A DNA stretch of 64,000 nt from the NCBI RefSeq assembly GCF_011326735.1, contig NZ_JAANCN010000010.1:1-64000 (forward strand). The letters run 5' to 3'. Source of the DNA: Phycicoccus endophyticus (GTDB lineage: Bacteria > Actinomycetota > Actinomycetes > Actinomycetales > Dermatophilaceae). A program made the translations under genes and the position numbers. How positions within the stretch are numbered: the first letter of the stretch is position 1; each line of letters begins with the position of its first letter. Positions 15,597-46,027 of the stretch are shown one piece after another. Below the pieces are notes generated by a model. That model was given only the letters and a program-made list of their open reading frames with translations. It had not been told where the DNA came from and made no database searches.

Positions 15597-15764
15597 GACC
15601 AATAGGTCACGTCAGGTACGTCCGGGCCGGGGTGGGCGTCACTGATTCGACCAATAGGTCACATCGGGCACGGTGTGGACCCGGTAGCCGTGCCTGACGT
15701 GACCTATTGGTCACGGGAGAGACGGGGCGGGCGGTTCCGGCGTCACCGGATTGACCTATTGGTC
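15597..15764. repeat. Repeat cluster A: four phased palindromic elements
   Basis: Four copies of the core GACCAATAGGTCA are present. Two lie on the plus strand (GACC cores at 15597-15608 and 15649-15660) and two on the minus strand (15701-15712 and 15753-15764). Core centres are 52 bp apart in every interval, including the one where orientation switches. The core is a dyad (GACC-AATA-GGTC) and in the third copy extends to a 6-bp stem, GTGACC/GGTCAC. The right flank CGTCAGGTACG is shared with cluster B and, as variants, with cluster C. Confidence 0.85.
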
Positions 15765-15820
15765 GATCCGGTGACGCGAGGTCACGCACCGGGCCCGTGG
15801 GCCGGGTTCGTTCCCGGGCG

Positions 15821-15928
15821 GGTCAGAGGTCTCCGGGTCAGGGATCTCCGAGTCAGGGGCCTCCGGGTCGGGGGTCTCCGGGTCAGGGATCTCCGAGTCG
15901 GGGGTTTCCGGGTCGGAGGGCCTCCGGG
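15821..15928. repeat. 15-bp minisatellite, about seven units
   Basis: Tandem units of the type GGTCAGGGATCTCCG run without gaps (units begin at 15821, 15836, 15851, 15866, 15881 and 15896, and a 16-base unit at 15911). Two units are identical and the others differ at one to four positions. The array abuts the stop codon of the carboxylase alpha gene. Confidence 0.85.
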
Positions 15929-17725
15929 TCAGGCGTCGGCAGTCTCGGCGTCGCCGTCGGCGTCCTTGAGGTCGCAGATGACCGCACCGTTGCTCACCGT
16001 CGCGCCGACCTCGGCCTTGAGGCCGGTGACGACGCCCGCCTTGTGCGCCGTGATCGGCTGCTCCATCTTCATCGCCTCGAGGACGACGACCTGGTCACCG
16101 GCGGCGACCGTCTGGCCCTCCTCGACGCTCACCTTGACGATGGTGCCCTGCATGGGCGCGGTGAGGGAGTCGCCGGAGGCCGCGGCCCCGCCGGAACCAC
16201 CGCCGGAGCGCCGCGGCGCCTTCTTCTTCGCCGACCCGCCCCCGCCACCGAAGGACAGCCCGCCGGGCAGCGAGACCTCGAGCCGCTTGCCGCCGACCTC
16301 GACGACGACGCGCTGGCGCTCCTCGGCCTCGGGGGCGTCGCTCGTCGGGCCGCCGTAAGGCTCGATGTCGTTGATCATCTCGGTCTCGATCCACCGGGTG
16401 TGGATGCTGAAGTGCTCCTGCGGGTCGGCGGGCGCGAACGCCGGGTCGGAGACCACCTTGCGGTGGAACGGGACGACCGTGGGCATCCCCTCGACGACGA
16501 GCTCGTCGAGCGCGCGGCGGGCCCGCTCGAGCGCCTGCTGGCGCGTGCGCCCGGTGACGACGAGCTTGGCGATCATCGAGTCGAACGCGCCGGCGATGGT
16601 GTCGCCCTCGACGATGCCCGCGTCCCACCGCACGCCGGGGCCCTGGGGGACGACCATCCGGCTCACCGTGCCCGGCGCCGGCAGGAAGCCGCGACCGGGG
16701 TCCTCGCCGTTGATGCGGAACTCGATGGAGTGCGCGTGCGGCTCGGGGTCGGGGTAGTCCAGGCTCTCGCCGTCGGCGATCCGGAACTGCTCGCGCACGA
16801 GGTCGACGCCGGTGACCTCCTCGGAGACCGGGTGCTCGACCTGGAGGCGGGTGTTGACCTCGAGGAAGCTGATGTCGCCCTGCGGGCCGACGAGGAACTC
16901 GCACGTGCCGGCGCCGACGTACCCCGCGGTGCGCAGGATCTCCTTGGACGCCCGGAGCAGCTCGGTGTGCTGCTCCTCGGTGAGGAACGGCGCGGGCGCC
17001 TCCTCGACGAGCTTCTGGTTGCGGCGCTGGAGGGAGCAGTCGCGCGTCGAGACGACGACGACGTTGCCGTGCTGGTCTGCGAGACACTGGGTCTCGACGT
17101 GCCGGGGGTGGTCGAGGAAGCGCTCGACGAAGCACTCGCCACGCCCGAAGGCGGTGACCGCCTCGCGCACGGCCGAGTCGTACAGCTCGGGGATCTCCTC
17201 CATCGAGCGAGCCACCTTCAGGCCGCGCCCACCACCGCCGTAGGCGGCCTTGATGGCGACCGGCAGGCCGTGCTCCTCGGCGAAGGCCACGACCTCGTCG
17301 GGCCCGTCGACCGGGTCCTTCGTGCCCGGCACGAGCGGCGCGTTGGCGCTGAGCGCGATGTGCCGCGCCTTGACCTTGTCACCGAGGGAGTCGATGGCCT
17401 CCGGGCCCGGCCCGATCCACGTCAGGCCCGCGTCGATGACCTTCTGCGCGAACGGGGCGTTCTCGGCGAGGAACCCGTAGCCGGGATGGATGGCGTCGGC
17501 GCCGGAGGCGTGCGCCACCTCGATGAGCTTGTCCTGGAGGAGGTAGGAGTCCCCCGGAGTCGAGCCGCCGAGGGCATGGGCCTCGTCGGCGACCTTGACG
17601 TGCAGCGCGTCCCGGTCCGGCTCGGCGTAGACCGCCACGGAGGCGATCCCGGAGTCGGTACAGGCACGGGCGATGCGGACGGCGATCTCGCCGCGGTTGG
17701 CGATGAGGACCTTGCTGATCGGCAT
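15929..17725 (-). CDS. accA: Acyl-CoA carboxylase alpha subunit (biotin carboxylase plus BCCP)
   Basis: This 598-residue protein carries two activities: ATP-dependent carboxylation of biotin and the biotin carrier itself. Residues 1-450 are the biotin carboxylase ([11 protein letters not shown] at the start, the glycine-rich [10 protein letters not shown] loop, and [10 protein letters not shown]). A flexible Gly/Ala/Lys-rich linker near 500-520 leads to the carrier domain, with the biotinyl lysine in EAMKMEQ (K553). It should serve several carboxyltransferases, including those at 31.6 and 46.3 kb in this window, because no other alpha subunit is present here. A likely -10 box (TAGAGT) lies seven bases before the ATG, suggesting a leaderless mRNA. 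BirA at 48 kb would attach its biotin. Confidence 0.94.
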
Positions 17726-17738
17726 GTCTCGAACTCTA
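17726..17738 (-). promoter_or_regulatory. -10 box for a leaderless accA transcript
   Basis: On the minus strand TAGAGT (17733-17738) is followed by seven bases and then the ATG, the spacing expected if transcription begins at the start codon. The bases TCGAGACATG here are identical to those at the start of the carboxyltransferase gene at 47974. No convincing -35 box is seen. Confidence 0.4.
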
Positions 17739-17917
17739 TCGGTCCGGGGCCCCCGGGCCGGGGTGGCCCTCGGAGGTTTGGCTCACACGTCCGGCCGCGG
17801 CCGGTCCTCCAGGGGAGCAGGCTGGCGGCCCCGGCGTAACGCATCTCACGGCGGGCTGCTCAGGGCTGCGGGAGACTGGAACCGTCCCGCTCCCGGGACC
17901 CTCCCGAGGAGGATGCG

Positions 17918-19237
17918 ATGTCTGCGCACTCCACTTCTCCCGCAACCGAACCCGAACCACGCGACGAGACCTTGACAGGCCCCACCGCGACCAGTGCGGC
18001 GGCACCCGCCGGGTCACCCGCGGCCCGGGCCGCCGTGAGCCCGCGCCAGCTCGCCTGGCTCGAGGAGCAGCTGGGCGAGTGGGCTGCCGACGGGCTGCTC
18101 GACGAGCAGGCCGTCGCCGCGGTCCGTGCCCGCTACCAGGTCCACCGGAGGGTCACCCTCACCGGCACCGTCCTCACCCTCGGCTCGCTCTTCGTCGGGG
18201 TCGGCCTGCTGTGGGCCGTGGTGGCGAACATCGAGGCGATGTCGCACCTCGTGCGGCTCGTCCTCGTCCTCTCCCTGTGGCTCGGGCTGCTGGCCACCGC
18301 CGAGCTCCTCGCCCACCGGCGGGCCCGGGCGGGAGACCTCGCGTCACCCGCCGTGGGCGCCCTGCGCCTGCTCGCGGCCGCGGCGCTCGGCGCGGTCGTC
18401 TTCCAGGGGGCACTGGCGGCCGAGGTGGCGACCGGCACACCGGGGCTGCTCGGCCTGTGGGCCCTCGGGGCGCTCGGCTACGCCTACGCCGTGGCAGCCC
18501 TCGGGCCCACCGTCCTCGGGGTCGTCCTCGGGGCCGGGTGGCTGCTCTGGGAGGTCGGGGAGCGCGCCGACGACGTGCTCGCGGTGACGACGGCGATCGC
18601 CGCCGCGGCGCTCGTGACCGTCGCCGCGGGGATCCTCCACCGGTACGCCGGCCGCCGCCGGGCCGCCTGGGCGTCACTCGGCCTGCCGTGGCGGGAGGTG
18701 GGGGCGGTGCTCGCCCTCGCGGCGCTCTTCGGTGCGGCCCTGCCGCTCGCCGAGGACCCCCCGCGGCCGCTGCCCGTGCTGCTCTGGGTGGCCCTCGCGG
18801 CCGGGGTCGTCCTCGGGGCGCTGGCCGCCGCCTCGGGCACCGGCGTGGACCGGTACGAGGTGGGCCTCGGCGCCGCGGCACTGGCGCTGACCCTCGTCCT
18901 GGCGCTGTGGCGCGGCCGGGCCGACATCGGCACCGTCGAGGACCTGACACCGCCCGACCTCGCCCGCGCGGTGACCGCGGTCGTGGTCTACCTGCTCCTC
19001 GCGAGCGGCTACGCGGTGCTCGGCGCGCTGCGCGGCTCCGACCGGCTCACGGCGGTGGCGGCGGCGGCGCTGGTGCTCTTCACGACGACGCAGGCGTTCG
19101 CCGTCTTCGCGCCGATCCTGCCCGGCGGCGTGCTCTTCGTCGCCGTCGGCGGCGTGCTGCTCGTGACGGGCCTGCTCGCCGACCGGGGCCGCCGCCGGCT
19201 GCGCGCCGCACGCGGCTCCCGCGACCGGCGCGGCTGA
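17918..19237 (+). CDS. DUF2157 multi-spanning membrane protein
   Basis: This 439-residue protein has a short disordered N-terminus, then a soluble helical DUF2157-like segment (SPRQLAWLEEQLGEWAADGL near residues 41-60, AVRARYQVHRR), followed by about a dozen hydrophobic helices rich in Ala, Leu, Val and Gly to the C-terminus. A GAGGAGG site precedes the ATG. The function of this family is not known to me; a membrane scaffold or transporter is possible. It stands alone, divergent from the carboxylase gene and convergent with the sugar-binding protein gene. Confidence 0.75.
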   Translation: MSAHSTSPATEPEPRDETLTGPTATSAAAPAGSPAARAAVSPRQLAWLEEQLGEWAADGLLDEQAVAAVRARYQVHRRVTLTGTVLTLGSLFVGVGLLWAVVANIEAMSHLVRLVLVLSLWLGLLATAELLAHRRARAGDLASPAVGALRLLAAAALGAVVFQGALAAEVATGTPGLLGLWALGALGYAYAVAALGPTVLGVVLGAGWLLWEVGERADDVLAVTTAIAAAALVTVAAGILHRYAGRRRAAWASLGLPWREVGAVLALAALFGAALPLAEDPPRPLPVLLWVALAAGVVLGALAAASGTGVDRYEVGLGAAALALTLVLALWRGRADIGTVEDLTPPDLARAVTAVVVYLLLASGYAVLGALRGSDRLTAVAAAALVLFTTTQAFAVFAPILPGGVLFVAVGGVLLVTGLLADRGRRRLRAARGSRDRRG

Positions 19238-19256
19238 CCCCGGCCCCCGGACGTGC

Positions 19257-19298
19257 AGCGGGGCCGCCGCGGCCCGAACGGCTCACGACGGCCCCGCT
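19257..19298. terminator. Hairpin between convergent genes
   Basis: A perfect 10-bp inverted repeat (AGCGGGGCCG, 19257-19266, and CGGCCCCGCT, 19289-19298) with a 22-base spacer lies between the stop of the DUF2157 gene and the stop of the sugar-binding protein gene. It could end both transcripts. Confidence 0.5.
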
Positions 19299-19315
19299 GG
19301 TTCGGGGGAGGAGGG

Positions 19316-20299
19316 TCAGCAGGTCGACTTGTAGGCCGCGTCGCCGCCCTCGCCGGAGAGGTTGTCCTTGGTGATGATGGTGAACCCGGTCTGGATCTCC
19401 TTCTCGACCGAGCCGCCGGTGAGCGCGGCGTCCGCCTGCTCGACGCCGTCCATGCCGATGGTGCTCGGCTGCTGGGCGACGAGCGCCTGGACGGTGCCGT
19501 CCTGCAGCGCCTTGATCTGGTTGGGGCCGGCGTCGAAGCCGACGATCGTCACGTCCTTGGCCCCGGCCTGGCGGACACCGGTCGCGGAGCCCTCGGCGGC
19601 GAAGAGGTTCGTCGCGAAGATGCCGACGATGTCCGGGTCCTTCTGCAGCGCCGCGGAGACGAGGTTGGCCGCCGTCGCCGGGTCGTTGTGGCTGTACTGG
19701 ACGCCGAGGTAGGTGAAGGAGCTGTCGCCCTTGGTGGCCTCCTCGAAGCCGTCGACGCGCGCGTCGACCGTCGAGATGCCGGGGTCGGTGGAGATGACGA
19801 GCACCTTCCCGCCGTCCGGCTTGGCCTCCTGGATGGCCTCGAAGGCCGCCTTCCCGCCGCCGATGTTGTCCGAGCTGATCTGCGAGACGGCGAAGGACGG
19901 GTCGTTGACCGTCGTGTCGACGAGCACCACCTTGATGCCGGCCGCCGCGGCCTGCTCCAGCGGAGCCTGCATCGCCTGGACGTCGGTCGGGGCGACGAGC
20001 AGCGCGGCCGGCTTGGACGCGGTGACCGAGTCCACGATCGGCTTCTGCAGGGTCGGGTCGAACTTCTGCGGACCCTGGGTCGTGACCGTGTAGCCGAGCT
20101 CCTTGGCCTTCTCCTCGATCCCGCACTGCATGGTGATGTAGAACTCGTCGCCGGCGACGCCCTGGACGAAGGCGATCGTCTTGTTGTCACTGCCACCGCT
20201 GTCGCCGCTGGAGTCGGCGCTCGGTGCCCCGGACGAGCACGCCGCGAGGGCGAGAGCTGCGCCGAGGACGGCTGCGGTGGACCTGAGGGTGCTTCGCAT
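19316..20299 (-). CDS. Sugar ABC importer binding lipoprotein (RbsB type)
   Basis: This 327-residue lipoprotein has a signal ending in the lipobox LAAC (C21), a Ser/Gly/Asp-rich linker and a type 1 periplasmic-binding fold of the ribose/galactose/autoinducer-2 group (LVAPTDVQAM, VISTDPGIST, VGFDAGPNQIKAL). It is the last gene of the sugar operon, 52 bp after the permease; that larger gap and a separate AGGCAGGA ribosome site are consistent with higher expression of the binding protein. The ligand is not evident; the enzymes encoded upstream point to a hexose or ketohexose. Confidence 0.88.
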   Translation of the reverse strand: MRSTLRSTAAVLGAALALAACSSGAPSADSSGDSGGSDNKTIAFVQGVAGDEFYITMQCGIEEKAKELGYTVTTQGPQKFDPTLQKPIVDSVTASKPAALLVAPTDVQAMQAPLEQAAAAGIKVVLVDTTVNDPSFAVSQISSDNIGGGKAAFEAIQEAKPDGGKVLVISTDPGISTVDARVDGFEEATKGDSSFTYLGVQYSHNDPATAANLVSAALQKDPDIVGIFATNLFAAEGSATGVRQAGAKDVTIVGFDAGPNQIKALQDGTVQALVAQQPSTIGMDGVEQADAALTGGSVEKEIQTGFTIITKDNLSGEGGDAAYKSTC

Positions 20300-20351
20300 G
20301 GGTCCTGCCTTTCTGTGGTGACTTCGTTGTCGTGGTGCAGGTGTGTGGGGG

Positions 20352-21386
20352 CTAGCCGGCCCGGACGGCGGCGGCCCGCCGGTGCTGGTCGACGTAGACC
20401 GCGGCGATGAGGATCGAGCCGACGGCGACCGTCTGCCAGTACGGGGAGACGCCGATGATGACGAACCCGGCCTGGAGGACCGCCGGGATGAACAGGCCGA
20501 CCATCGAGCCGAACATCGAGCCCTGGCCGCCGAAGATCGAGGTGCCGCCGATGACCACCGCCGCGATGACGTTGAGGTTGGTCAGCGACTGCCCGGCGAT
20601 CGTCGTCGTGCCGTACTGCGCGAGCGAGAGGATGCCCGCGACGCCGGCGAGGAAGCCGGAGAAGGCGTAGATCTCCACGAGCTTGCGGTCGACGTTGATG
20701 CCGACCCGGCGGGCGGAGACCTCGTTGGACCCGATGGCGTAGGTGTACCGGCCGAAGCGGGTGCGGTGGAGGATCACCCCGCCGATGACGACGATGACGA
20801 GCGCGATGAGCGTGATCGCCGGGACGCCGGCGAGCCGGCCGTAGCCGATGGAGTCCTGCAGCACGCGCGGGGCGGAGCGGATGTCGAGGCCGCCGGTGAG
20901 GATCTGCGCGCTGCCGAGCGCGACGGAGAGCGTCCCGAGGGTCACGATGAGCGGGGGGACCTTCGCCTTGGCGACGAGCAGCCCGTTCAGGCCACCCCAG
21001 AAGACCCCGACGACGACCGAGAGCACGAGGCCGACGAGCGCCGTGCCCCACCCGGTGTCGCCCATCGACTCCATGACCTTCGCCGCGACGACGGAGGAGA
21101 CCACGAGCACCGAGCCGACGGACAGGTCGATGCCCGCGGTGATGATGACGAAGGTCATCCCGACCGCGAGGACCGCCCAGATGGAGACGTTCTGGGCGAT
21201 GTTGGTCAGGTTGCCCGTCGTGAGGAACGTGCTCGGCTGCATGACGCCGAAGATGGCGACGATGACGACGAGCACGCCGAGGATCCACACCGACTGCATG
21301 GCGCGGACCCGGTCGGCGAGGCTGTCGTGGGTGGCCTTGGTCTCGATCCCCGAGGCCGGCCTGTCGCTCGTGGTGGTCGTGCTCAT
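20352..21386 (-). CDS. Sugar ABC importer permease (RbsC type)
   Basis: This 344-residue membrane protein is the homodimerising pore subunit of a CUT2 sugar importer. It has about nine or ten hydrophobic helices and family motifs GIDLSVGS, NGLLVAKAKVPPLIVTLGT and GSMFGSMVG. The ATG overlaps the stop of the ATPase gene (ATGA). It acts with the ATPase and binding lipoprotein encoded on either side. Confidence 0.9.
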   Translation of the reverse strand: MSTTTTSDRPASGIETKATHDSLADRVRAMQSVWILGVLVVIVAIFGVMQPSTFLTTGNLTNIAQNVSIWAVLAVGMTFVIITAGIDLSVGSVLVVSSVVAAKVMESMGDTGWGTALVGLVLSVVVGVFWGGLNGLLVAKAKVPPLIVTLGTLSVALGSAQILTGGLDIRSAPRVLQDSIGYGRLAGVPAITLIALVIVVIGGVILHRTRFGRYTYAIGSNEVSARRVGINVDRKLVEIYAFSGFLAGVAGILSLAQYGTTTIAGQSLTNLNVIAAVVIGGTSIFGGQGSMFGSMVGLFIPAVLQAGFVIIGVSPYWQTVAVGSILIAAVYVDQHRRAAAVRAG

Positions 21387-22147
21387 GCCGCACCCTCCTT
21401 GATCTCCAGTGCTCCGGTCATGGCGCCGACGAGCTCCTCGACGCTCGTGCCCTTGCCGGGGTAGGTGGCGACCCGCTTGCCGAGCCGCAGCACCTGGATG
21501 CGGTCGGCCACCTCGAGCACGTGCGGCATCGAGTGCGAGATGAGCACGACGCCGAGCCCGCGGTCGCGGACCCGCTTGACCATGTCCAGGACGTTGCGGG
21601 TCTGCACGACGCCGAGCGCGGCGGTCGGCTCGTCGAGGAAGAGGACCTTGTCGGCCCAGGCCACGGCGCGGGCGATGGCCACCGACTGCTTCTGGCCGCC
21701 GGACATCGACCCGACCGGGGTGACGACGCTGCGCACGGCCGACCCGAGGTCGGTGAAGGCCTGGGCGGCCTCCTGGCGCATCCGGGGGGTGTCCATGAAC
21801 CCGAGCCGGCCGAGCAGGCCACTGCGCATGACCTCACGGCCGAGGTACATGTTCTGCGCCGCGTCGAGGTGTGGCGCGAGGGCGAGGTCCTGGTGGACGA
21901 CCTCGATGCCGGCGCGCGAGGCGTCCTGGGGGGTGTGGAACGTCACCGGGGTGCCCTCGAAGAGGACCTCCCCCTCGTCGAGGTCGAGGTTGCCGGTGAG
22001 CGCCTTGACGAGCGTGGACTTGCCGGCACCGTTGTCGCCGATGAGGGCGACGACCTCGCCGGCGGAGACGTCGAAGTCCGCACCGTCGAGCGCCTGGACC
22101 CGGCCGAAGCGGCGGCGCAGCCCGCGGGCCTCGAGCAGGGCGCTCAT
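21383..22147 (-). CDS. Sugar ABC importer ATPase, single-domain CUT2 type
   Basis: This 254-residue protein has one nucleotide-binding domain, with Walker A GDNGAGKST (37-45), signature MSGGQ and Walker B VLFLDEP. The better-known RbsA and MglA have two fused domains of about 500 residues; single-domain versions such as the FrcA type must dimerise. The reading frame shows no trace of a lost second domain, so this is not a truncation. The ATG overlaps the aldolase stop (ATGA), and the permease start overlaps its own stop. Confidence 0.9.
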   Translation of the reverse strand: MSALLEARGLRRRFGRVQALDGADFDVSAGEVVALIGDNGAGKSTLVKALTGNLDLDEGEVLFEGTPVTFHTPQDASRAGIEVVHQDLALAPHLDAAQNMYLGREVMRSGLLGRLGFMDTPRMRQEAAQAFTDLGSAVRSVVTPVGSMSGGQKQSVAIARAVAWADKVLFLDEPTAALGVVQTRNVLDMVKRVRDRGLGVVLISHSMPHVLEVADRIQVLRLGKRVATYPGKGTSVEELVGAMTGALEIKEGAA

Positions 22148-23049
22148 GCCGCGCTCTCCCGGTACGAGCGGGCCCGGCCCTCGATGATGGCGCGGTACTC
22201 GTCGAGGCGCCGACGCCCGGTGTCGGAGAGGAACGCGACGCGCTCGGCGTGGTCCATGGCGACCGCCTCGCGCCACACCGACCGCCCGGCGATGAAGCCG
22301 CTGGCGCCGCCCTCGTCGCAGCTGATGCGCAGCACCTCGGAGAACTCGTCCGAGGACACACCGGCCGAGAGGACCGCCCAGGGTGAGGAGATGCGTTCGG
22401 CGAGACGCCGGCACGCCTCGGGGCTGCCGGGGTACTCGAGCTTGAGCAGGCTGGGGCTGAGCTGGTCGATGAGGACCGCGGCCTCGATGATGGCGTCCGC
22501 GCGGGCCGCGGGGGAGAGGGGCTCCTCGCCGGCGAGCGGGAAGATGAGGTTCTCGATGACCGAGGGCACGCCGACCTCGGCACAGTCGGCGACGAGGGTG
22601 CGCATGACCTCGACCGCCTCGGCCGTCGTGTCCCGGCCGTCGGCGCCGGGGCGCCGGTCGGCGCGGACCTGGACGAGGAACTTCATCGCGTCGGCACCGC
22701 TGTCGCGCACCCAGGCCGCGTCCTGGGCGGGGTCGAGCGCGACGACGGGCTCGCCGTCGTGCGTGCCGCGGCTCGCGGGCTCGGCGGCGAGCAGGAGGCC
22801 GAAGGGGGAGGATGCCTCGGCGGCCTTGGCGGCGGGCAGGCCGAAGGTGGGGTCGACGAGGAAGGCCGAGGCGCTGCCGGCGAGCGAGGCGATCATGTCG
22901 CGCTTGAGCGCGGTGATCTCCTCCTCCGTCGTCTCGCTGCGGTCGACGGCGGCGAGCATCCGCCGCAGGGTGCCTCGCTGGTCCATCGCGAGGACGGCGA
23001 AGGTACCTGCCTCGGTGGCGATGGCGTCGAGTCCGGTCGTGGTCGTCAT
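22144..23049 (-). CDS. Class I aldolase, LacD/YihT family (aldolase 1)
   Basis: This 301-residue protein belongs to the family of tagatose 1,6-bisphosphate aldolase (LacD) and sulfofructose 1-phosphate aldolase (YihT). The likely Schiff-base lysine is K203 in LLKLEYP, followed by the phosphate-site segment AVLSAGVSSDEF and the GGASGFIAGRSVW loop. It would split a phosphorylated ketohexose into dihydroxyacetone phosphate and an aldehyde. It overlaps both neighbours (kinase and ATPase) by four bases, so it is firmly within the sugar operon. Which sugar it uses is not shown by sequence. A second, different member of the family is encoded at 26.5 kb. Confidence 0.82.
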   Translation of the reverse strand: MTTTTGLDAIATEAGTFAVLAMDQRGTLRRMLAAVDRSETTEEEITALKRDMIASLAGSASAFLVDPTFGLPAAKAAEASSPFGLLLAAEPASRGTHDGEPVVALDPAQDAAWVRDSGADAMKFLVQVRADRRPGADGRDTTAEAVEVMRTLVADCAEVGVPSVIENLIFPLAGEEPLSPAARADAIIEAAVLIDQLSPSLLKLEYPGSPEACRRLAERISSPWAVLSAGVSSDEFSEVLRISCDEGGASGFIAGRSVWREAVAMDHAERVAFLSDTGRRRLDEYRAIIEGRARSYRESAA

Positions 23050-26412: not shown

Positions 26413-26434
26413 CGGGGGCCTCCTTGCCCAGATC

Positions 26435-26446
26435 GACAGCGCTGTC
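26435..26446. promoter_or_regulatory. LacI-type operator O1
   Basis: The perfect 12-bp palindrome GACAGCGCTGTC lies just upstream of the ribosome site of the PfkB-type kinase gene, the first gene of the sugar operon. It has the central CG and symmetric half-sites typical of LacI-family operators, and matches the second site 66 bp away. Confidence 0.75.
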
Positions 26447-26462
26447 ATTGGTGGAACGCCCC

Positions 26463-26491: not shown

Positions 26492-26499
26492 AAGGCGCT

Positions 26500-33192: not shown

Positions 33193-33193
33193 C

Positions 33194-33948: not shown

Positions 33949-33993
33949 TCGGGGTGGGTCCGCGTCCGCCGGACCCACCCAGGAGGCGCCGAC

Positions 33994-39200: not shown

Positions 39201-40243
39201 CCGACCTGTCGACCCGCTACCTCGGGATGACGCTGCGCTCCCCGCTCCTCGCCAGCTCCTCACCGGCGACCCTCGGCGTCGAGCGGGTCCGGGAGCTCGC
39301 CGACGCCGGGGTCGGGGCGGTCGTGCTGCCCTCGCTCTTCGAGGAGGAGGTGACCCGCGAGCAGCTGCGCGACCTCGCGCTCACCGAGGGCACCGAGCAC
39401 GGCGACGGCGAGGCGGCCTCGTACTTCCCCCGTGTCCCGAGCGCCGGGGGCGCCGAGGCCGGCGCCGCGTCGCGCCACCTGCGGCTCGTCGAGCAGTGCG
39501 CCGCCGCCGTCGACGTGCCGGTCATCGCCTCGCTCAACGGGAGCACTGCCGGGGGATGGACCGGTTTCGCCCGCCGGCTCGTCGACGCGGGCGCCGCGGC
39601 GGTCGAGCTCAACGTCTACCTCGTCCCCGGTGACCCGGCGAGCAGCGGTCGCGAGGTCGAGGACCTCCACGTCGAGGTGCTCGAGCGGGTGCGCGAGGTC
39701 CTCGAGGTCCCCGTCGCGGTCAAGCTGAGCCCGTACTTCAGCGCCACCGGGGAGATGGCCACCCGCCTGGACCGCGCCGGCGCGCACGCGCTCGTCCTCT
39801 TCAACCGCTTCCTCCAGCCCGACGTCGACCCGGACACGCTGCGGGTCACCACCGCCGTCGAGCTCTCCAGCCCCGCGGAGGCCCGGCTGGCGCGCACCTG
39901 GGTGGCCCTGCTGCACCGTCGGGTGCGGGCCGACCTCGCGGCGACCACCGGGGTGGAGAGCGCCCGGGACGTCGCCGCCTACCTGCTCGCCGGGGCGGAC
40001 GTCGTGATGACGGCGTCGGCGCTCGTGCGGCACGGCACCGGACACGCTGCGACCCTCCTGCAGGGCCTGACCCGGTGGATGGAGGAGCACGGCTTCGCGG
40101 ACCTCACGGCGGTGCGCGGGCGGCTCGCGGTCCCGACCGACGTCGACGCCTCCGCCCACGGCCGCGCCGGCTACGTCGCGGCGCTCGAGCGCGCCCGGCG
40201 AACCTACGGCGACCTCGCCGCGGTCCGTCAGCCGAGCACCTGA
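39197..40243 (+). CDS. Dihydroorotate dehydrogenase-like FMN protein
   Basis: This 348-residue TIM-barrel protein belongs to the dihydroorotate dehydrogenase/PreA superfamily but is not a biosynthetic PyrD. Family features are SPLLASSSPAT near the N-terminus, VELNVYLVPGDP, VKLSPYFS and LVLFNRFLQPD. It lacks the C-terminal ferredoxin domain of PreA. The GTG start overlaps the NifJ stop (GTGA). Proteins of this type are known to me as neighbours of pyruvate:ferredoxin oxidoreductases; their reaction is not established. With the GltD-like protein it resembles a split dihydropyrimidine dehydrogenase, which may mean a shared electron-transfer design. Its 3' end overlaps the convergent antiporter gene by 16 bp. 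Confidence 0.8.
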   Translation: MTDLSTRYLGMTLRSPLLASSSPATLGVERVRELADAGVGAVVLPSLFEEEVTREQLRDLALTEGTEHGDGEAASYFPRVPSAGGAEAGAASRHLRLVEQCAAAVDVPVIASLNGSTAGGWTGFARRLVDAGAAAVELNVYLVPGDPASSGREVEDLHVEVLERVREVLEVPVAVKLSPYFSATGEMATRLDRAGAHALVLFNRFLQPDVDPDTLRVTTAVELSSPAEARLARTWVALLHRRVRADLAATTGVESARDVAAYLLAGADVVMTASALVRHGTGHAATLLQGLTRWMEEHGFADLTAVRGRLAVPTDVDASAHGRAGYVAALERARRTYGDLAAVRQPST

Positions 40244-42120
40244 TCGACGAAGCACCACCGCCACGCCTCGCCCGGCTCGATCGAGCGCATCACCGGGTGG
40301 CCGGTCCGCTCGAAGTGGCGTGAGGCGTGCCGCCCGAGCGAGGAGTCGCAGCAGCCGACGTGCCCGCACGCGGTGCACGAGCGCAGGTGCACCCAGGTCA
40401 GCCCCTCCGCCCGGCACTCGGGGCAGCCGTCGGTCTCGCTCGGCGGGTGGGGTGCGGCGTCGTCGGCCAGGTGCTCGCAGGCGCCGGCGACCCGCGCCGG
40501 CGGGCGCAGCTCGGAGTCGCGCACGTCGGCGGTCTGGGTCGCGCTCGAGACCAGCGCCGTCTCCTCGGCGTCGAGCTGGCCGAGCACCCCGGTGAGCACC
40601 GCGTGGTCGACCCGGCCCTGCGAGCGGATGCGCAGCAGCTCGCGGCGCTCCTCGCGGATCATCTCGATGCGCAGCCGGGCCCGGGCCTCCGCGGGGCTCT
40701 CCCGGTCGCCGGGGCCGAGCGTGCCGAGCCGCTCCCAGCTGCGGTTGACCCGGTCGGCGGCCTGCTGACGGATGACCTCGACCACCGCCGGGTCGGCGCC
40801 GGGGTCGTCCTGGAGCATCCGCAGCCCGGCGCCGGTCGTGGCGCCGAGCACGGTCGCCTCCTGGAGGGCGTCCTCGCGTGGGTCCGGGCCCTGCACGCCG
40901 AGGAGACGGGCGAGCGCCGGCAGGGTCGTGCCCTGGAGCAGGAGCGTGCCGACCGTCACGACGAGCGCGACGAGGACGAGCTCGGGGCGCAGCGGCGTCT
41001 CCTCGGGCAGGGTGAGCGCGGCCGCGAGCGTGACGACCCCACGCATCCCGGCCCAGCCGCTGAGCAGGGACCAGCGCAGCACGGCCCGCCGCTCGCTCGT
41101 CCCCCGCAGGACCTGGACCACGCCCTGGCCGAACAGCCACAGCGGGCGCAGGACGAGCACGGTGAGCAGCACGGCCGCGGCGACGAGGACGGTGCGCCCC
41201 GTGCCGAGCTCGCCGGCCCGGGTGTCGGTGACGAGGCCGGAGACCTGCAGGCCGATGAGCAGGAACACGGCGTTCTCGAGGACGAAGGTGACGCTCGACC
41301 AGTTGGTGCGCTCGGCCAGCCTGGAGGGGGCGGACTGCAGCACCGGTGCCCGGTGGGCGAGCAGGAGGCCGGCGGTGACCACGGCGAGCACGCCGGAGGC
41401 GCCCACCGCCTCGGCCGGGGCGTAGGCGAGGAAGGGGGCGATGAAGGACAGCGCGGTGTCCGCCGGGACCTCGGTGAGGCGCCGGCGCAGCCAACCGACG
41501 ACGAGGTGGGCCACCACGCCGACCGCGACACCGCCGAGGGCCGCGAGGAGCAGGTCGAGGGCGACGGTCGCGGGGGTCACCTGTGCGAGCAGCCCGTCGG
41601 TGCCGTGCGCTGCGAGCCCGGCGGCGGCCAGGGCCGTGCGCAGCGAGACCAGGGCCGTGGCGTCGTTGAGCAGCGACTCTCCCTCGAGGACCGTCGTGAT
41701 CTTCCGCGGCAGCCCGATACGGCGCGCGACGGCGGTCGCCGCCACGGCGTCCGGGGGCGCGACGACGGCGCCGAGCGCGAAGGCGACCGCGAACGGCACC
41801 GGCAGCAGCCACCACGTGACCAGGCCCACACCGGCCGCGGTGAACAGGACGAGCCCCACCGAGAGGCTGAGGATCTTGGAGCGGTAGGCCCGGAAGTCCA
41901 CGAGCGAGCTCGTGATGGCCGCCGAGTACAGCAGCGGGGGCAGCAGCCCGTAGAGCGCGACCTCGGGGGAGAGGCGCACCTCGGGCATGCCGGGCAGCGC
42001 CGAGAGCACGGCGCCGACGACGAGCAGCGCCACGGGTGCGGGCACCCGGGCGGGCGCCGCGAGGCGGCTCACGATGATGACGACGAGGACGATGGCGACG
42101 ACGAGCTCGGCGGTCTCCAC
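40228..42120 (-). CDS. Na+/H+ antiporter fused to a UBP-type zinc finger
   Basis: This 630-residue protein starts as a CPA1/NhaP cation:proton antiporter of about twelve membrane helices (VVAPPDAVAATAV and LEGESLLNDATALV hold the ion-site aspartates). After the membrane part come a cytosolic helical region and, from about residue 548, a complete UBP-type zinc finger with ligands at C548, H550, C566, C569, C582, C585 and further Cys/His to H608. Eukaryotic fingers of this type bind the ubiquitin C-terminus. In bacteria the role is unknown; it could sense a free C-terminal peptide or act structurally. Fusions like this occur in other actinobacteria as far as I recall. The start is GTG. Confidence 0.88.
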   Translation of the reverse strand: METAELVVAIVLVVIIVSRLAAPARVPAPVALLVVGAVLSALPGMPEVRLSPEVALYGLLPPLLYSAAITSSLVDFRAYRSKILSLSVGLVLFTAAGVGLVTWWLLPVPFAVAFALGAVVAPPDAVAATAVARRIGLPRKITTVLEGESLLNDATALVSLRTALAAAGLAAHGTDGLLAQVTPATVALDLLLAALGGVAVGVVAHLVVGWLRRRLTEVPADTALSFIAPFLAYAPAEAVGASGVLAVVTAGLLLAHRAPVLQSAPSRLAERTNWSSVTFVLENAVFLLIGLQVSGLVTDTRAGELGTGRTVLVAAAVLLTVLVLRPLWLFGQGVVQVLRGTSERRAVLRWSLLSGWAGMRGVVTLAAALTLPEETPLRPELVLVALVVTVGTLLLQGTTLPALARLLGVQGPDPREDALQEATVLGATTGAGLRMLQDDPGADPAVVEVIRQQAADRVNRSWERLGTLGPGDRESPAEARARLRIEMIREERRELLRIRSQGRVDHAVLTGVLGQLDAEETALVSSATQTADVRDSELRPPARVAGACEHLADDAAPHPPSETDGCPECRAEGLTWVHLRSCTACGHVGCCDSSLGRHASRHFERTGHPVMRSIEPGEAWRWCFVDQVLG

Positions 42121-42222
42121 GGGAGGATTCTCACCCCTGCGAGCGGGTGCGAGGGCCCCGGGCGCCCGGCGGCCCCGTGCGGACCGGTGCGGGGGCGGGC
42201 GTGGCGGGGCCGGCGGCGCCCG

Positions 42223-43923
42223 TCAGGTGGCGGTGGGGCCGTCGAGCACCGCGGTGCGCAGGACGTCGAGGCCGACCGACCCGACGTCGAGCGCGCGCCG
42301 GTGGAAGTCCTTGAGGGAGAACGCATCCCCGTCGCGGGAGCGGACCTCCTCGCGCAGCTGCAGCCACAGCCGCTGGCCGACCTTGTAGCTCGGTGCCTGG
42401 CCGGGCCAGCCGAGGTAGCGGTCGAGCTCGAACCGCAGCGTGGCCTCGTCGTTGCTCGCATGCGCGGTGAGGAACGCCCACGCCTTGTCGTAGGTCCACG
42501 CGCCGCCGCCGACCTCCGCGGGGGCCTCGAACCCGCAGTGCACGCCGATGTCGATGACGACCCGCGCCGCCCGCAGCGACTGCGCGTCGAGCATCCCGAG
42601 GTAGGTGCCGGGGTCCTCGAGGTAGCCGAGCTCGGCCATGAGCTGTTCGGCGTAGAGCGCCCAGCCCTCACCGTGCCCGCTGACCCAGCACATCATCCGG
42701 CGCCACCGGTTGAGCAGCTCGCGCCGGTGCACCGTCTGCGCCACCTGGAGATGGTGGCCGGGGACGCCCTCGTGGTAGACGGTCGTCAGCTCCTTCCACG
42801 TCCCGAACTCGGTGACGCCCTTGGGGACCGACCACCACATCCGGCCCGGCCGGGTGAAGTCGTCGCTCGGCCCCGTGTAGTAGATGCCGCCGGTCTGGGT
42901 CGGCGCGATCCGGCACTCGATGGTGCGCACCGGGTCGGGGATGTCGAAGTGGGTGCCGGCGAGGTCGGCGATGGCCTCGTCGGCGCGCACCTGCATCCAC
43001 GCCCGCAGGGCCTCGGTGCCGTGCAGCCGGTAGGCCTCGTCGCCGTCGAGGCGCTCGACGGCCTCCGCGAGCGTGCCTCCGGGCACGATGCGCTGCGCCG
43101 TGGCCGCCATCTCGGCGGCGACCCGGGCGAGCTCCTCCTGGCCCCAGGCGTAGGTCTCCTCGAGGTCGACCCTCGCCCCGAGGAAGGCCCGCGAGGCCAG
43201 CTGGTAGCGCTCGCGGCCCGCAGCGTCCTCCCGCGGTGCGCGCTCCAGCAGCCGGTCGGCGAGCTCGGTGCCGGCCTGCTCGTATGCGGCGGCGGCCCCC
43301 TCGACCGCACGCTGCAGCTGCGCGGCGAGCGGGCCCTCGAGCGGCGCGCCGTCGACGCGGGCGTCGGCGAGGAAGGTGGCGAAGTAGCCGTCGGGCGCGG
43401 TGAGGTCCGCGCACTGCCGGATGCACGCCTCCACCTGGCGACGGGGCGTGACGAGCCCGCGCTCGGCCGACTCGCGCAGCGTGCCGAGGTACTGCCCGAG
43501 GGCGCGGGGCACCTGGCCGAGGCGCGCGGCGATGGTGGCCCAGTCCTGCTCGGTGTCGGTGGGCATGAGGTCGACGACGTCGCGGCACGCCTGCAGCGGT
43601 GAGGCGATGACGTTGAGCTCCATCCGGTCGTAGCCGGCCTCGTGCGTCTCGAGCTGCAGGCCGAGGCGCTCGCGCATCGCGGCGACGGTGACCTCGTCGA
43701 CGGCGTCGACCGGGGTGGCGGCGTCGAGGCGGGCGAGGGTCTCCCGGGCCAGGTCGGCGTGGGCGGCGTAGCCGGCGGGGGAGAGGTCGTCGAGCTCGTG
43801 GTCGTGGCCGGGGACCCCGAGGTAGGTGGCCTCGATGGGGCTGAGCGCGACGGCGGCGTCGAAGTGGGCGTCGGCGACGGCGTCGACGGCGGTCGGCCGG
43901 CGCGGGAGGGTGGGCTCGCTCAT
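42223..43923 (-). CDS. DUF885 metallopeptidase-like protein
   Basis: This 566-residue protein is a DUF885 member, probably a zinc carboxypeptidase of the thermolysin-like superfamily. The zinc motif is in HEGVPGHH (384-391) with the third-ligand region EGWALYAEQ (419-427). There is no signal peptide, so it should be cytoplasmic. The start is ATG. It is monocistronic, upstream of the antiporter on the same strand with a 102-bp gap, and its 5' region carries the 4 x 52 bp repeat array. Substrates of the family are not well defined. Confidence 0.83.
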   Translation of the reverse strand: MSEPTLPRRPTAVDAVADAHFDAAVALSPIEATYLGVPGHDHELDDLSPAGYAAHADLARETLARLDAATPVDAVDEVTVAAMRERLGLQLETHEAGYDRMELNVIASPLQACRDVVDLMPTDTEQDWATIAARLGQVPRALGQYLGTLRESAERGLVTPRRQVEACIRQCADLTAPDGYFATFLADARVDGAPLEGPLAAQLQRAVEGAAAAYEQAGTELADRLLERAPREDAAGRERYQLASRAFLGARVDLEETYAWGQEELARVAAEMAATAQRIVPGGTLAEAVERLDGDEAYRLHGTEALRAWMQVRADEAIADLAGTHFDIPDPVRTIECRIAPTQTGGIYYTGPSDDFTRPGRMWWSVPKGVTEFGTWKELTTVYHEGVPGHHLQVAQTVHRRELLNRWRRMMCWVSGHGEGWALYAEQLMAELGYLEDPGTYLGMLDAQSLRAARVVIDIGVHCGFEAPAEVGGGAWTYDKAWAFLTAHASNDEATLRFELDRYLGWPGQAPSYKVGQRLWLQLREEVRSRDGDAFSLKDFHRRALDVGSVGLDVLRTAVLDGPTAT

Positions 43924-44283
43924 CTGCCGGACGCTACCCGAGCCGTCCTCCCATCGCCCGGCCTCCCATCCACGCCCCGTGTCGCCGTGTCCAGATCGAC
44001 CAATAGGTCACGTCAGGTACGTCCCGCCCGGCGTTGGCGTGTCCAGATCGACCAATAGGTCACGTCAGGTACGTCCCGCCCGGCGTTGGCGTGTCCAGAT
44101 CGACCAATAGGTCACGTCAGGTACGTCCCGCCCGGTGTTGGCGTGTCCAGATCGACCAATAGGTCACGTCAGGTACGTGCCGCCCGGTGCTGCCGACGCC
44201 GGGGGCTCGGGCCGCTGTCCACGGCGTGGGCGAGACCCCCACGGGCGGCACGCCGTTGCGCCCGGCCGGCGTACCCTCGGTCG
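43924..44283. other. Intergenic region between divergent genes, mostly repeat array
   Basis: Between the starts of the DUF885 and MOSC genes, 208 of 360 bases are the 52-bp tandem array. Apparent reading frames across it on the plus strand are translations of the repeat. The 63 bp next to the DUF885 gene and the 89 bp before the MOSC gene must hold their promoters; none is obvious. Confidence 0.6.
43987..44194 (+). repeat. Repeat cluster B: four tandem 52-bp units
   Basis: Units begin at 43987, 44039, 44091 and 44143, each starting GTGTCCAGATC and carrying the core GACCAATAGGTCA followed by CGTCAGGTACG. Units 1 and 2 are identical, unit 3 differs at one base, and unit 4 diverges in its last third. 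All four point the same way. The core dyads are centred 52 bp apart (44003.5, 44055.5, 44107.5, 44159.5), the same spacing as in cluster A. Confidence 0.92.
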
Positions 44284-44946
44284 GTGGCCGCACGCATCCG
44301 CTCTGTCAACGTCGGCGTCGCTCGGGACGGCATCGGGACCAAGGGCCGGCCCAGCGCCATCGACAAGCGCCCCACGGCCCGGATCGACGTGCGCGACCCG
44401 GGCCCCAAGCGCGGCGGGCTGGGAAGTGGCGTTCTCGGTGACGACGTCGTCTCCCGCAAGCACCACGGCGGCTCACGGCAGGCGGTGTACGCCGTCGCCC
44501 GTGAAGAGCTCGACCACTGGGCGGACGAGCTCGGTCGCGAGCTGCGCGACGGCATCTTCGGGGAGAACCTCACGACCGAGGGTCTGGACGTCGACGGCGC
44601 CGTGCTCGGGGAGCGTTGGGCGGTGGGCTCTGCGTTGCTCGAGGTGACCGGCCCGCGCACCCCGTGTGCGACGTTCGCTGCCTGGATGGGCGAGAAGGGA
44701 TGGGTGCGGCGGTTCGCCGAACGGGGTCGTACGGGCGCCTACCTCGCCGTGGTCCGGCCGGGGACCGTCGCGGCCGGCGATGCCGTCGACGTCGTCGACC
44801 GGCCGGGGCACGGAATCGCCGTTCCCCGGGTCTTCCGTGCATTCTGCGGCGACCTCGAGGCGGCCGAGGAGGTGCTGGCGGCCGACGTCCTCGGTGCGGA
44901 CGACCGGGCAGACCTGGCGCGGGCCGTAGCGCGCCGTCGGCGCTGA
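44284..44946 (+). CDS. MOSC-domain protein (YiiM-like)
   Basis: This 220-residue protein is a MOSC domain, the C-terminal module of molybdenum-cofactor sulfurases and of the YiiM/YuaD proteins involved in handling sulfur or N-hydroxylated compounds. It shows SRKHHGGSRQAVYAV, GIFGENLTTEG and the conserved cysteine in GPRTPCATF. It lacks the cysteine desulfurase domain, as is usual for stand-alone members. The GTG start is chosen to fit the family N-terminus (VAARIRSVNVG); no strong ribosome site is visible. It is downstream of the repeat array. Confidence 0.87.
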   Translation: MAARIRSVNVGVARDGIGTKGRPSAIDKRPTARIDVRDPGPKRGGLGSGVLGDDVVSRKHHGGSRQAVYAVAREELDHWADELGRELRDGIFGENLTTEGLDVDGAVLGERWAVGSALLEVTGPRTPCATFAAWMGEKGWVRRFAERGRTGAYLAVVRPGTVAAGDAVDVVDRPGHGIAVPRVFRAFCGDLEAAEEVLAADVLGADDRADLARAVARRRR

Positions 44947-44956
44947 GCGGACGCTG

Positions 44957-45889
44957 TCAGGCGGCGATGCGCTGGACGCGGAAGTGCGCGCGCCACGCAT
45001 CCGACAGCGTGCTGGGGACGCTCACTCCGGCGGCCCGTAGTTCGCTCAGCAGTCGATCGAGGAGCGCGGCGGGGTCGACGTAGAGGTCGTCGCCGGTGAC
45101 GAGGACGAAGGTCCAGCCCTCGGTGTCGGTCAGGTGAGCACGCCGTGCCTCGTCGTGCGCTCGCTGCTCGGGGGAGTCGTGCCACCGCCCGTCGTACTCG
45201 ACAGCGACCTTGGGCCCCTCGTACCCCAGATCGAGGCGGAAGCGCACGTGCCCGTCGGCGTCGCGGAGCTCCACGTTCACCGTCGGCTCCGGGAGGCCGG
45301 CCAGCACCATGAGGAGCCGCAACGCCGTCTCGGGCGAGGAGTCGACGCCCTCTCGCACGAGGCGCGCGGCGGCCAGCGCTTCCCCCCGGCACTGGCCGGC
45401 CCACCCCTCGGCGTAGGCCACGAGGTCGCTCGTGCTCAGCCGGTGCTTGCGGACGAGGCTGTCGCCGAGGGCCACCAGGTCGACGAGCCCGAGGAAGCGG
45501 GCGAGGTGGCAGAAGGTCTGGCCCGGCGAGGTGACGGGAACCCCGTGCCGCCGCACGACCTCGAGGCGGTGCCGATGGCGGTGCGTCCGCACGCCACGTA
45601 CGCGGAAGCGGACGTCCCGCATGAAGGCCACGTGGACCCACTCGCTGTCGGGGACTCGCCCACCCCACAGCCGGGCCGCCGTCCAGTGGCTCACGACCGC
45701 TCCCTCGGGCGCGAGCAGGAGTGCCGCGCGGGCCCGGACGGCAACGGTGTCGGGGACGAGGGCGGAGACCATGACTCCGGGCAGCACCTGCCGGTACCGG
45801 GGCCCGGTCAGCGCGCGGACCGGCACCCCGAGCAGGGCCGCCTCCCGGCGGAGGAACGGCCATGACGGAGGTGGGCGCGTCTCGGACAT
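44957..45889 (-). CDS. DUF559-type nuclease-like protein with AbiEi-like N-terminus
   Basis: This 310-residue protein is of a type common and often multi-copy in actinobacteria. The N-terminal part (VVSHWTAARLWG, VRTHRHRHRLEVVRRHGVPVT) resembles the AbiEi-like antitoxin domain. The C-terminal part (RLDLGYEGPKVAVEYDGRWH, split as DLGYEG and VAVEYDG, then GWTFVLVTGDDL) is a DUF559/Vsr-like PD-(D/E)xK nuclease fold with Asp and Glu-Tyr-Asp-Gly in place. The start is ATG. It is convergent with the MOSC gene by 10 bp and lies next to repeat cluster C. Its role is unknown; a defence or mobile-element link is possible. Confidence 0.75.
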   Translation of the reverse strand: MSETRPPPSWPFLRREAALLGVPVRALTGPRYRQVLPGVMVSALVPDTVAVRARAALLLAPEGAVVSHWTAARLWGGRVPDSEWVHVAFMRDVRFRVRGVRTHRHRHRLEVVRRHGVPVTSPGQTFCHLARFLGLVDLVALGDSLVRKHRLSTSDLVAYAEGWAGQCRGEALAAARLVREGVDSSPETALRLLMVLAGLPEPTVNVELRDADGHVRFRLDLGYEGPKVAVEYDGRWHDSPEQRAHDEARRAHLTDTEGWTFVLVTGDDLYVDPAALLDRLLSELRAAGVSVPSTLSDAWRAHFRVQRIAA

Positions 45890-45962
45890 GACCCGAGAGT
45901 GGCACGGACGGCCGCGCGCGACGTGGCGTCATCCACAGGCTCGCTCGGGCCGTGCCGGACGT

Positions 45963-46027
45963 GACCTATTGGTCACGTGAGGTACGCCGGGGGCTGGCCG
46001 GGGCGTGTCTGAAGTGACCTATTGGTC
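45963..46027 (-). repeat. Repeat cluster C: two palindromic elements
   Basis: Two minus-strand copies of the core GACCAATAGGTCA have dyads at 45963-45974 and 46016-46027, centred 53 bp apart. The left copy extends to GTGACC/GGTCAC. The region after the right copy (GAATCGGTGACGCG) matches the region after the last copy of cluster A (GATCCGGTGACGCG), so the homology extends beyond the core. The cluster lies between the DUF559 gene start and the accE stop. Confidence 0.85.

Follow-up and report, generated by a model that had tools for sequence, protein, structure and literature searches.

The ten copies of GACCAATAGGTCA in the window, i.e. the whole 64-kb stretch of DNA analysed here, probably belong to a two-part system as its dispersed, REP-like sites, with the gene for a Vsr/EDxHD-type nuclease as the partner. 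The partnership between gene and repeat is well supported, and the manner in which the repeat spreads is inferred. The proposed partner is a DUF559 gene located between two of the three arrays, Table 1.

The repeat unit and its arrays

Ten copies in three intergenic loci had been predicted, and all of them are found in place. Shuffled windows contain on average 0.16 matches (maximum 1, with up to two mismatches allowed), so the repeat is not a chance product. Two surplus matches at two mismatches are opposite-strand reads of sites already counted. The gene-end contexts also hold: array A lies between two 3' ends, array B between two 5' ends and array C between a 5' and a 3' end.

The 13-mer is the middle of a 36-bp dyad, in which a 12-bp core and outer CGT/ACG triplets are conserved. 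The original prediction described a 52-bp unit continuing as CGTCAGGTACG. This continuation is real, however it is one half of the longer dyad and the unit is 36 bp long. The value of 52 bp is instead one of three spacings that differ by about one helical turn. In the window the cores are 52 bp apart from centre to centre (53 bp in the final pair), and in the clusters of the complete genome the spacing is mostly 42, 52 or 62-63 bp. Here the helical period is not sharply resolved between 10 and 11 bp, and the Rayleigh values overstate independence because the arrays are related by descent. The unit starts with CGTn, with position 4 carrying 0.3 bits in the window's genome, and neither a GTAG nor a CGTC head is conserved. 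An ACG at the far end of the unit mirrors the CGT start.

Table 1. Position of the arrays and of the neighbouring genes in the window.
Feature	Position	Strand	Description
Pyr_redox gene	13684-15153	+	left of array A
ORF	15150-15512	+	near array A; no Pfam match
Array A	15585..15776	.	four 36-bp units, order ++--, centre spacing 52/52/52; 13-mer at 15597 (+), 15649 (+), 15700 (-), 15752 (-)
Array A cores	15597-15608, 15649-15660, 15701-15712, 15753-15764	+, +, -, -
Biotin carboxylase gene	15929-17725	-	right of array A
DUF885 gene	42223-43923	-	5' end faces array B
Array B	43986..44177	+	four near-identical 52-bp tandem units; 13-mer and core starts 43998, 44050, 44102, 44154 (all +); on the 3' flank of the DUF559 gene, past MOSC
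MOSC-domain gene	44284..44946 (about)	+	PF03473, E 9.9e-37; separates the DUF559 gene from array B
DUF559 gene (proposed partner)	44957..45889	-	310 aa; between arrays B and C
Array C	45951..46039	-	two units, cores 45963-45974 and 46016-46027, both -; 13-mer at 45962 (-), 46015 (-); directly upstream of the DUF559 start; a short minus-strand ORF lies beyond it, with its 3' end towards the array

A minus-strand ORF called to the left of array A is an error of the gene caller.

Distribution in the genome and in the family

A scan of the complete genome, proposed earlier as a check, returned 98 copies with at most one mismatch, 92 of them exact, in 26 clusters, while the reversed control gave none. 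The repeat is thus not confined to the three loci. The copies are mostly intergenic: over all seven genome groups, a crude gene caller places 9 out of 93 clusters within genes. This agrees with the predicted dispersed family rather than with the operator of one promoter. As foreseen, no known family was recognised (no Rfam match at gathering score in the 64-kb window), and a tRNA search found none, so that a known RNA family or a tRNA is rejected. Within the family, GTGACCWATWGGTC is present in six of 186 genomes and absent from the other 180.

The original prediction saw no fixed position relative to genes; two rules were nevertheless found. First, convergent gene pairs are favoured, holding 37 out of 84 arrays versus 20 out of 176 background gaps, and 112 of the 168 gene ends facing arrays are 3' ends. 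Second, the arrays point inward. Whenever the orientation changes within a cluster of the window's genome it goes from + to - (18 out of 18), and in G069 at least 17 such switches and no reverse one occur among the matches listed (100 of 104 sites). One array in G011 (L083) runs - then +.

A viral origin was rejected, since neither the exact 19-base repeat pattern nor, in a peptide-pattern search, a DUF559 relative is found in viral contigs. Spread by plasmids was rejected as well: matches occur in six plasmid records, and all are weak.

The DUF559 gene is bracketed by its own repeat

The repeat brackets the DUF559 orthologue in four genomes (G000, which is the window's own, G011, G069 and G070), and in the three non-window genomes the bracketing copies are inverted. 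The gene order ACC-DUF559-MOSC-DUF885 is conserved. The MOSC gene belongs to this conserved order and is not proposed as a member of the system.

Three congeners without the window repeat (G005, G003 and G008) carry a different dyad in the identical slots, GACGAAAGTGTCGATT at the G005 locus. A 15-mer of this alternative dyad occurs in exactly these three of the 186 genomes, with 13, 4 and 13 copies respectively; the gene itself accounts for 1, 3 and 3 of them. Presence and absence of a repeat at one and the same slot is observed between genomes. The DUF559 orthologue in G005 is 70% identical to that of the window, yet this genome has none of the window-type sites, i.e. the gene alone does not predict the window repeat. 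The close orthologues in all three congeners lack GACCAATAGGTC, and the gene was rejected as a simple presence marker of it. At the window's locus, proteins with one repeat type differ from those with the other by six fixed residues, four of them within residues 83-104. Strict co-evolution of motif and protein across the whole family is not supported, the likeness of motifs hardly following that of proteins (51 loci, Mantel r 0.109, p 0.056).

We compared the flanks of 16 further DUF559 genes with those of 210 control genes, which are other genes of the same regions. Twelve of the 16 exceed the top inverted score of the controls, thirteen if direct matches are counted. A repeat shared between both flanks is found for none of the 210 controls (Fisher 1e-18), nor for any of the 43 whose gaps measure 80 bp or more on either side (Fisher 1e-10). 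In the phylum as a whole, 16 out of 28 DUF559 loci have a repeat common to both flanks and twelve fail. That many related genes in other actinobacteria have private repeats of their own points to a gene-repeat system undescribed so far. Among 30 family loci, ten fail the automatic test, including that of G110 and the window's own (score 11), the latter because the MOSC gene lies between the gene and array B. Some homologues share direct rather than inverted copies, and some share none.

Single genomes speak both for and against the partnership. In its favour, a flanking 16-mer in G170 has seven copies, four at the gene and three elsewhere, and none in the 11 other genomes searched. Against it, six site loci examined in G107 contain no DUF559 gene, and the DUF559 locus examined there (L134, one of five matches) is flanked by another repeat. 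Seven site loci in G110 are likewise without the gene; the gene examined (seven match in all) is accompanied by GTCCAATAGGAC, which is related to the dispersed sites. G584 has a single doublet of the flanking type away from the gene.

The protein encoded by the DUF559 gene

The window protein consists of an AbiEi-like N-terminal part, residues about 55-131 (PADLOC AbiEi, E 2.8e-8), and a C-terminal domain of the Vsr-fold/DUF559 (MTES_1575) nuclease type, residues 214-284. The PF18741 match (E 7.4e-9, 36 bits) is just below the curated cut-off of 38.2, the PF04480 match (E 0.0021) is likewise below its cut-off, and the single DUF559 match in NCBIfam is sub-threshold. Among 57 homologues five residues are nearly invariant: E231 (96%), D233 (95%), H237 (98%), D246 (98%) and R249 (100%). 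On our reading, they correspond to the EDxHD motif.

The single sensible Foldseek match is I-Bth0305I (3r3p), with a probability of 0.95, a TMt of 0.67 and an E of 0.19, from a weak query model (mean pLDDT 59.5) for which nothing matches at E 0.001 or better. This model is too weak to serve as fold-level proof of the nuclease domain, and no relative among solved structures is found by sequence at E up to 1. The protein group is very common, with a relative at E 0.001 or better in 174 of the 186 family genomes.

Comparison with known systems

The closest parallel is the REP/REPIN-RAYT system. The accounts cited here describe short palindromes with many intergenic copies, in inverted pairs and tandem clusters, which prefer convergent and unidirectional gaps, and a repeat type tied to one gene, which has an inverted pair of copies around it (PMC2817692, PMC3116915, PMC3733652). 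The window repeat is similarly short, palindromic, numerous and mostly intergenic, and its proposed partner gene lies between inverted cognate copies, on one side past the MOSC gene in the window. The differences are the absence of a conserved GTAG or CGTC head, the inward polarity, the 10-bp spacing ladder and the partner itself, where a Vsr/DUF559 protein that also has an AbiEi-like part takes the place of a Y1 HUH (IS200/IS605-type) enzyme. In the literature cited, REP repeats are attributed to RAYT transposases. A RAYT-like gene had been suggested as the mover, however Y1_Tnp (PF01797) is found in none of the 12 genus genomes (control genomes are positive in 5 of 14), and a RAYT/Y1 transposase was rejected as the partner.

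The N-terminal part resembles the antitoxins of AbiE type IV toxin-antitoxin systems. AbiEi and Rv2827c are described in the cited account as binding 23-bp inverted repeats in their own promoters (PMC7319586). In contrast, the window protein is fused to a Vsr-type nuclease domain, its presumed sites are spread genome-wide, and no AbiEii (DUF1814) toxin gene is found among the Pfam-scanned neighbours in the window. The C-terminal part shares the conserved E-x-D...H...D residues with EDxHD (Vsr-like) homing endonucleases. One of these, the weak fold match I-Bth0305I, is reported to dimerise on a target that spans nearly 60 bp (PMC3943268). Unlike such enzymes, the window gene is free-standing between metabolic genes and not inside another gene, and many intact presumed sites persist in the genome. 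A Vsr-type MTES_1575 nuclease with two wHTH domains has also been described, as a giant HEPN/helicase/transglutaminase fusion unlike the 310-aa window protein, and the part of that description cited here makes no link to repeats (PMC3710099). A literature search, with most subscription journals outside its scope, retrieved no report tying DUF559/MTES_1575 proteins to flanking or dispersed repeats.

Proposed mechanism and alternative explanations

In the system we propose, one part would be the gene for the protein joining an AbiEi-like DNA-binding part to the nuclease domain. The other would be a 36-bp dyad private to the protein lineage, inverted copies of which bracket the gene and which elsewhere forms inward-facing arrays near gene ends. 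The N-terminal part may bind the dyad as a dimer, and co-operation of neighbouring dimers on one DNA face would produce the spacing of about 42/52/62 bp. The nuclease domain might nick or cut at the site, or at a hairpin that an inward-facing pair could form, and repair of the break would copy or expand the sites. The gene with its flanking sites would then be an autonomous unit, and the gene-less arrays its non-autonomous offspring, possibly retained where they are least harmful.

There is about an even chance that this extends to an Actinomycetota-wide REP-type system of RAYT-independent origin, in which a Vsr/EDxHD nuclease with an AbiEi-like part breeds and maintains private palindromes, recognition has been repeatedly re-specified and each such gene is recognisable by its flank repeat. 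If true, a second, unrelated enzyme class would have the REP architecture, a case of convergent evolution of repeat-breeding genes. A very common protein group would gain a function, many private intergenic palindromes would be explained, and a single protein together with a 36-bp DNA would suffice to test how such repeats spread. The many natural protein/repeat pairs would likewise offer a data set on site choice by the DNA-binding part.

A possible alternative, though one we hold to be clearly the less probable, is that the arrays do no more than bind a protein. This protein, DUF559 or another one, would act on them as a roadblock, insulator or chromosome organiser at gene ends, the flanking copies would serve autoregulation, the nuclease would not be used on them, and ordinary duplication and selection would spread them. 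At orthologous loci the core is identical while linkers, spacing and copy number vary among species, which fits binding, as do the spacing ladder, the preference for convergent genes and the autoregulation by AbiEi proteins on inverted repeats (PMC7319586, in the part cited). However, sites also occur 3' of the gene and past the MOSC gene, entire site sets are present in some congeners and absent from others, and near-invariant nuclease residues would be superfluous in a protein that only binds.

It is unlikely that we are dealing with a genotoxic nuclease, a relative of the AbiE antitoxins, which the genomic sites titrate or for which they label the chromosome as self, so that the host is protected or incoming DNA attacked. 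The PADLOC AbiEi matches and the Vsr-fold domain are compatible with this, and Caulobacter VsrA, a DUF559 protein, is described in the source section cited as harming cells without a cytosine methylase (PMC12907096). However, around the window gene the Pfam scan identifies MOSC, DUF885 and carboxyl transferase but no toxin, methylase or defence gene, and the peptide-pattern search found no relative in viral contigs.

We consider it improbable that the DUF559 genes merely occupy repeat-rich slots while the repeats are spread by some transposase or by a repair process. The G005 genome, where the gene does not predict this repeat, and the replacement of one repeat by another at equivalent slots would suit such an origin; the control genes of the same regions, none with shared flanks, argue against it, as does Y1_Tnp, the sole transposase family searched, with no match in the genus. 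An RNA-level role of the arrays, with the dyad as a hairpin and the inverted arrays as bidirectional terminators or mRNA stabilisers, is hardly probable, for although array A (15580-15725) folds as a long hairpin in single-stranded DNA (z -5.46), an idealised 36-mer forms a perfect 16-bp stem in DNA folding and 3' ends prevail at the arrays, no Rfam family matches in the window, a common outer-type unit hardly folds (z -0.82), tandem array B stays unfolded (z -0.74), and 9 out of 84 arrays lie between divergent genes.

The repeat and its units

A pattern search of the window confirmed all ten copies of the 13-mer at the positions of the original prediction; the shuffled window sequence gave 0.16 matches at up to two mismatches. 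In the genome of the window (G000; 3.18 Mb in 21 contigs) the motif occurs 98 times at up to one mismatch, 92 of these being exact matches, and the reversed control motif does not occur. With neighbouring copies less than 250 bp apart joined, they form 26 clusters, 25 of which contain at least two sites. Between array A and the end of the biotin carboxylase gene, at 15819-15937 of the window, a 15-bp unit (CGGGTCAGGGATCTC and variants) is repeated in tandem.

The alignment of 97 units from G000 shows a 36-bp dyad with a 12-bp centre, GACC-AATA-GGTC, which is invariant because the units were picked by it. The AC on one side of the centre is mostly fixed (1.7 and 1.4 bits), and the outer triplets, CGT and ACG, reach 1.9 bits at their best positions. 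Centre-to-centre spacings (n=72) are 41-42 (29), 51-53 (28) and 61-63 bp (7), with 8 others, the three main values being about 4, 5 and 6 helical turns. All 18 orientation switches between neighbouring copies in G000 run from + to -, as do all 17 in the related genome G069 (among 100 listed of 104 sites); one exception is found in G011 (L083), and arrays of a single orientation exist (array B, L038). The outermost halves of the arrays are unlike the inner halves, and an array thus acts as one inward-facing composite. As single-stranded DNA, array A forms a long hairpin (z -5.46); no such fold was found for the tandem array B (z -0.74), and a common outer-type unit scarcely folds (z -0.82).

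A lone site in G069 (L116, ~2040-2077) is a perfect palindrome, TTGTCCCCAGATCGACCAATAGGTCGATCTGGGGACAA, except for the central AATA; sites standing alone may have higher symmetry than those in arrays. An array at 42-bp spacing in the same genome (L114, 4043-4138) has three cores, all of the symmetric form GACCAATTGGTC, shared by 7 of the 11 G107 sites that were read; this form is a sub-family of the repeat.

Distribution and placement

The GTGACCWATWGGTC form is present in six of 186 genomes of the family (G000, G011, G069, G070, G107 and G110) and in none of the remaining 180, and the family search found the plain 13-mer in seven more genomes, with one or two copies apiece. An order-level sample of 396 genomes, drawn without G011, G069 and G070, has paired sites in three (G000, G107 and G110). 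The extended motif form, scanned against named genomes, matches 27 stretches, each of which comes from an uncultured Phycicoccus isolate or a Dermatophilaceae MAG. G011 is of the same genus as the window, and several arrays of G000 sit at positions orthologous to arrays of G011 or G070, differing in number and spacing.

Genes were predicted by a simple codon-usage caller, crude enough to miss the Pyr_redox gene end at array A; by these calls, 84 arrays from seven genome groups have readable neighbours, 37 convergent, 38 tandem and 9 divergent, and 9 further arrays lie inside a predicted gene. The background (gaps of 80 bp or more in 20 regions and the window) has 20, 112 and 44, respectively (convergent vs rest, Fisher 8e-9). 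Arrays face 112 3' ends and 56 5' ends, against 152 and 200 in the background, and the core nearest to a 3' end is a median 33 bp away from it. Sites are spread very unevenly on the 3.7 Mb contig C1 of G069, the first 1.26 Mb having 5 of the 100 listed.

The DUF559 gene and its flanks

The C-terminal Vsr-fold domain of the DUF559 protein matches MTES_1575 (E 7.4e-9, 36 bits, below the cut-off of 38.2) and DUF559 (E 0.0021), and the N-terminal part is AbiEi-like, as in two orthologues. The gene order ACC-DUF559-MOSC-DUF885 is kept in the eight genomes compared, with MOSC inverted in G110.

The DUF559 gene of the window and the repeat sites around it in four genomes
Feature	Position	Strand	Location
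DUF559 gene	44957-45889	-	between arrays B and C
G000 sites			2 before DUF559, 4 beyond MOSC
G011 sites			4 before DUF559, 3 directly after
G069 sites			2 before DUF559, 2 directly after, 3 beyond MOSC (one with altered core)
G070 sites			1 before DUF559, 2 directly after, 2 beyond MOSC (one with altered core)

Occupation of the slots varies among relatives, since the MOSC-DUF885 gap (51-79 bp) is without such an array in G011, G003, G005 and G008, and 16 bp separate DUF559 from MOSC in G000. The 186-genome search did not find the window motif in G005, G003 and G008; there, both gaps beside DUF559 hold a different dyad, [C/T]G[A/T]CGAAnGTGTCGATT and variants, inverted across the gene as in the repeat carriers. 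The DUF559 flank of G110 has GTCCAATAGGAC. Another repeat, around CTTCGCAGGCTCAGAGCTCAGGGGGACCC, does not resemble the flanking dyads; it lies at the carboxyltransferase gene end, between that gene and DUF559, in tandem in L122 (G070) and also in L123 (G003).

Tests of the probable partnership

A partnership between the DUF559 gene and the repeat is very probable. The 15-mer CGAAWGTGTCGATTG occurs in exactly three of 186 genomes, with 4 copies in G003 (3 at the gene), 13 in G005 (1 at the gene) and 13 in G008 (3 at the gene). Several of the dispersed sets of G005 and G008 are again spaced at 52-54 bp, and of 12 such clusters convergent gene pairs flank 4, tandem pairs flank 4, and predicted genes contain the other 4. 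In G170, the motif flanking DUF559 has 7 exact copies, 3 of which are not at the gene; a search of 11 other genomes found no copy. The flanking doublet of G584, from another family of the class, has 3 copies, 2 at the gene and 1 elsewhere, and none in nine other genomes, which lends the partnership weak support. Four copies of the G008 dyad (L211, 2072-2339) lie inside a long predicted ORF at 93/93/81-bp spacing; both values are multiples of three, so this repeat may be translated.

In a test with control genes, 20 regions, each no longer than 19 kb, were retrieved blind to the flanks, and the best ungapped match between upstream and downstream flank was scored for the 16 DUF559 genes with a gene call and complete 350-bp flanks; four regions dropped out. 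Twelve of the 16 lie above the top inverted control score (14) and 13 exceed one of the control maxima, 14 for inverted and 16 for direct matches; no control gene is over the threshold (0 of 210, including 0 of 43 whose two flanking gaps both reach 80 bp). Among L118-L147, 20 of 30 loci are over the threshold, but these loci partly gave rise to the partnership idea and are not a clean test. A phylum-wide search yielded 29 loci, 28 of them scorable, two of these from the family of the window and four genomes contributing two loci each; 16 of the 28 are over the threshold. The shared repeat is direct rather than inverted in several loci. In L134, L138 and L140 (genus g52) the shared words are wholly or mainly downstream of the gene, thus two-sided bracketing is not present in every lineage.

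Motif and protein relatedness

Motif likeness tracks protein likeness among close relatives only. Over 51 loci the Mantel r is 0.109 (p 0.056), and the mean motif score is 5.8-6.4 below 50% protein identity, 7.4 at 50-60%, 10.2 at 60-70% and 20.8 above 70%, with a shuffled baseline of 5.9. In the tree, G003, G005 and G008 group together (100/97) next to G000 (85/90, below the star threshold of the programme); the repeat type therefore appears to have changed a single time at the window locus. Apart from one gap column, six positions carry different fixed residues in the four GACCAATAGGTC proteins and in the three others; four of the six are at 83-104, which given the shared ancestry is a lead, not proof. 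The partnership leaves G107 and G110 in part unexplained. Their 13 fetched site loci contain no DUF559 gene; the DUF559 loci read are L134, one of five matches in G107, and L127, one of seven in G110.

Comparison with REP/RAYT

As in REP/RAYT, so far as the portions consulted of PMC2817692, PMC3116915 and PMC3733652 describe it, the gene has a private palindrome on both sides, in inverted copies, and this palindrome is dispersed as inverted pairs and as clusters near gene ends. Judged by architecture alone, the DUF559-repeat system could be classed as of the REP kind, and we infer that it would work in a similar way. It is not a REP/RAYT member, as a Y1 transposase was sought in 12 genomes of the genus and not found. 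No homology to REP/RAYT is seen in either the DUF559 protein or the repeat, and its chemistry must be a different one. Spread of the repeats driven by the nuclease has about an even chance of being correct, and the explanation as a whole, partnership together with this spread, is likely.

The predicted enzyme

E231, D233, H237, D246 and R249 are kept in 95-100% of 57 homologues and D220 in 86%, a profile that we take for that of an active Vsr/EDxHD-type nuclease. AlphaFold gave a poor model from three sequences, with a pLDDT of 59.5 (58-88 by block for residues 121-300), and the only Foldseek match to it that we consider sensible is the catalytic domain of I-Bth0305I (prob 0.95, E 0.19). This homing endonuclease dimerises on nearly 60 bp, according to the section used of PMC3943268. 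AbiEi antitoxins, in the excerpt consulted of PMC7319586, bind 23-bp inverted repeats within their own promoters, and an N-terminal part that binds the dyad would fit with this.
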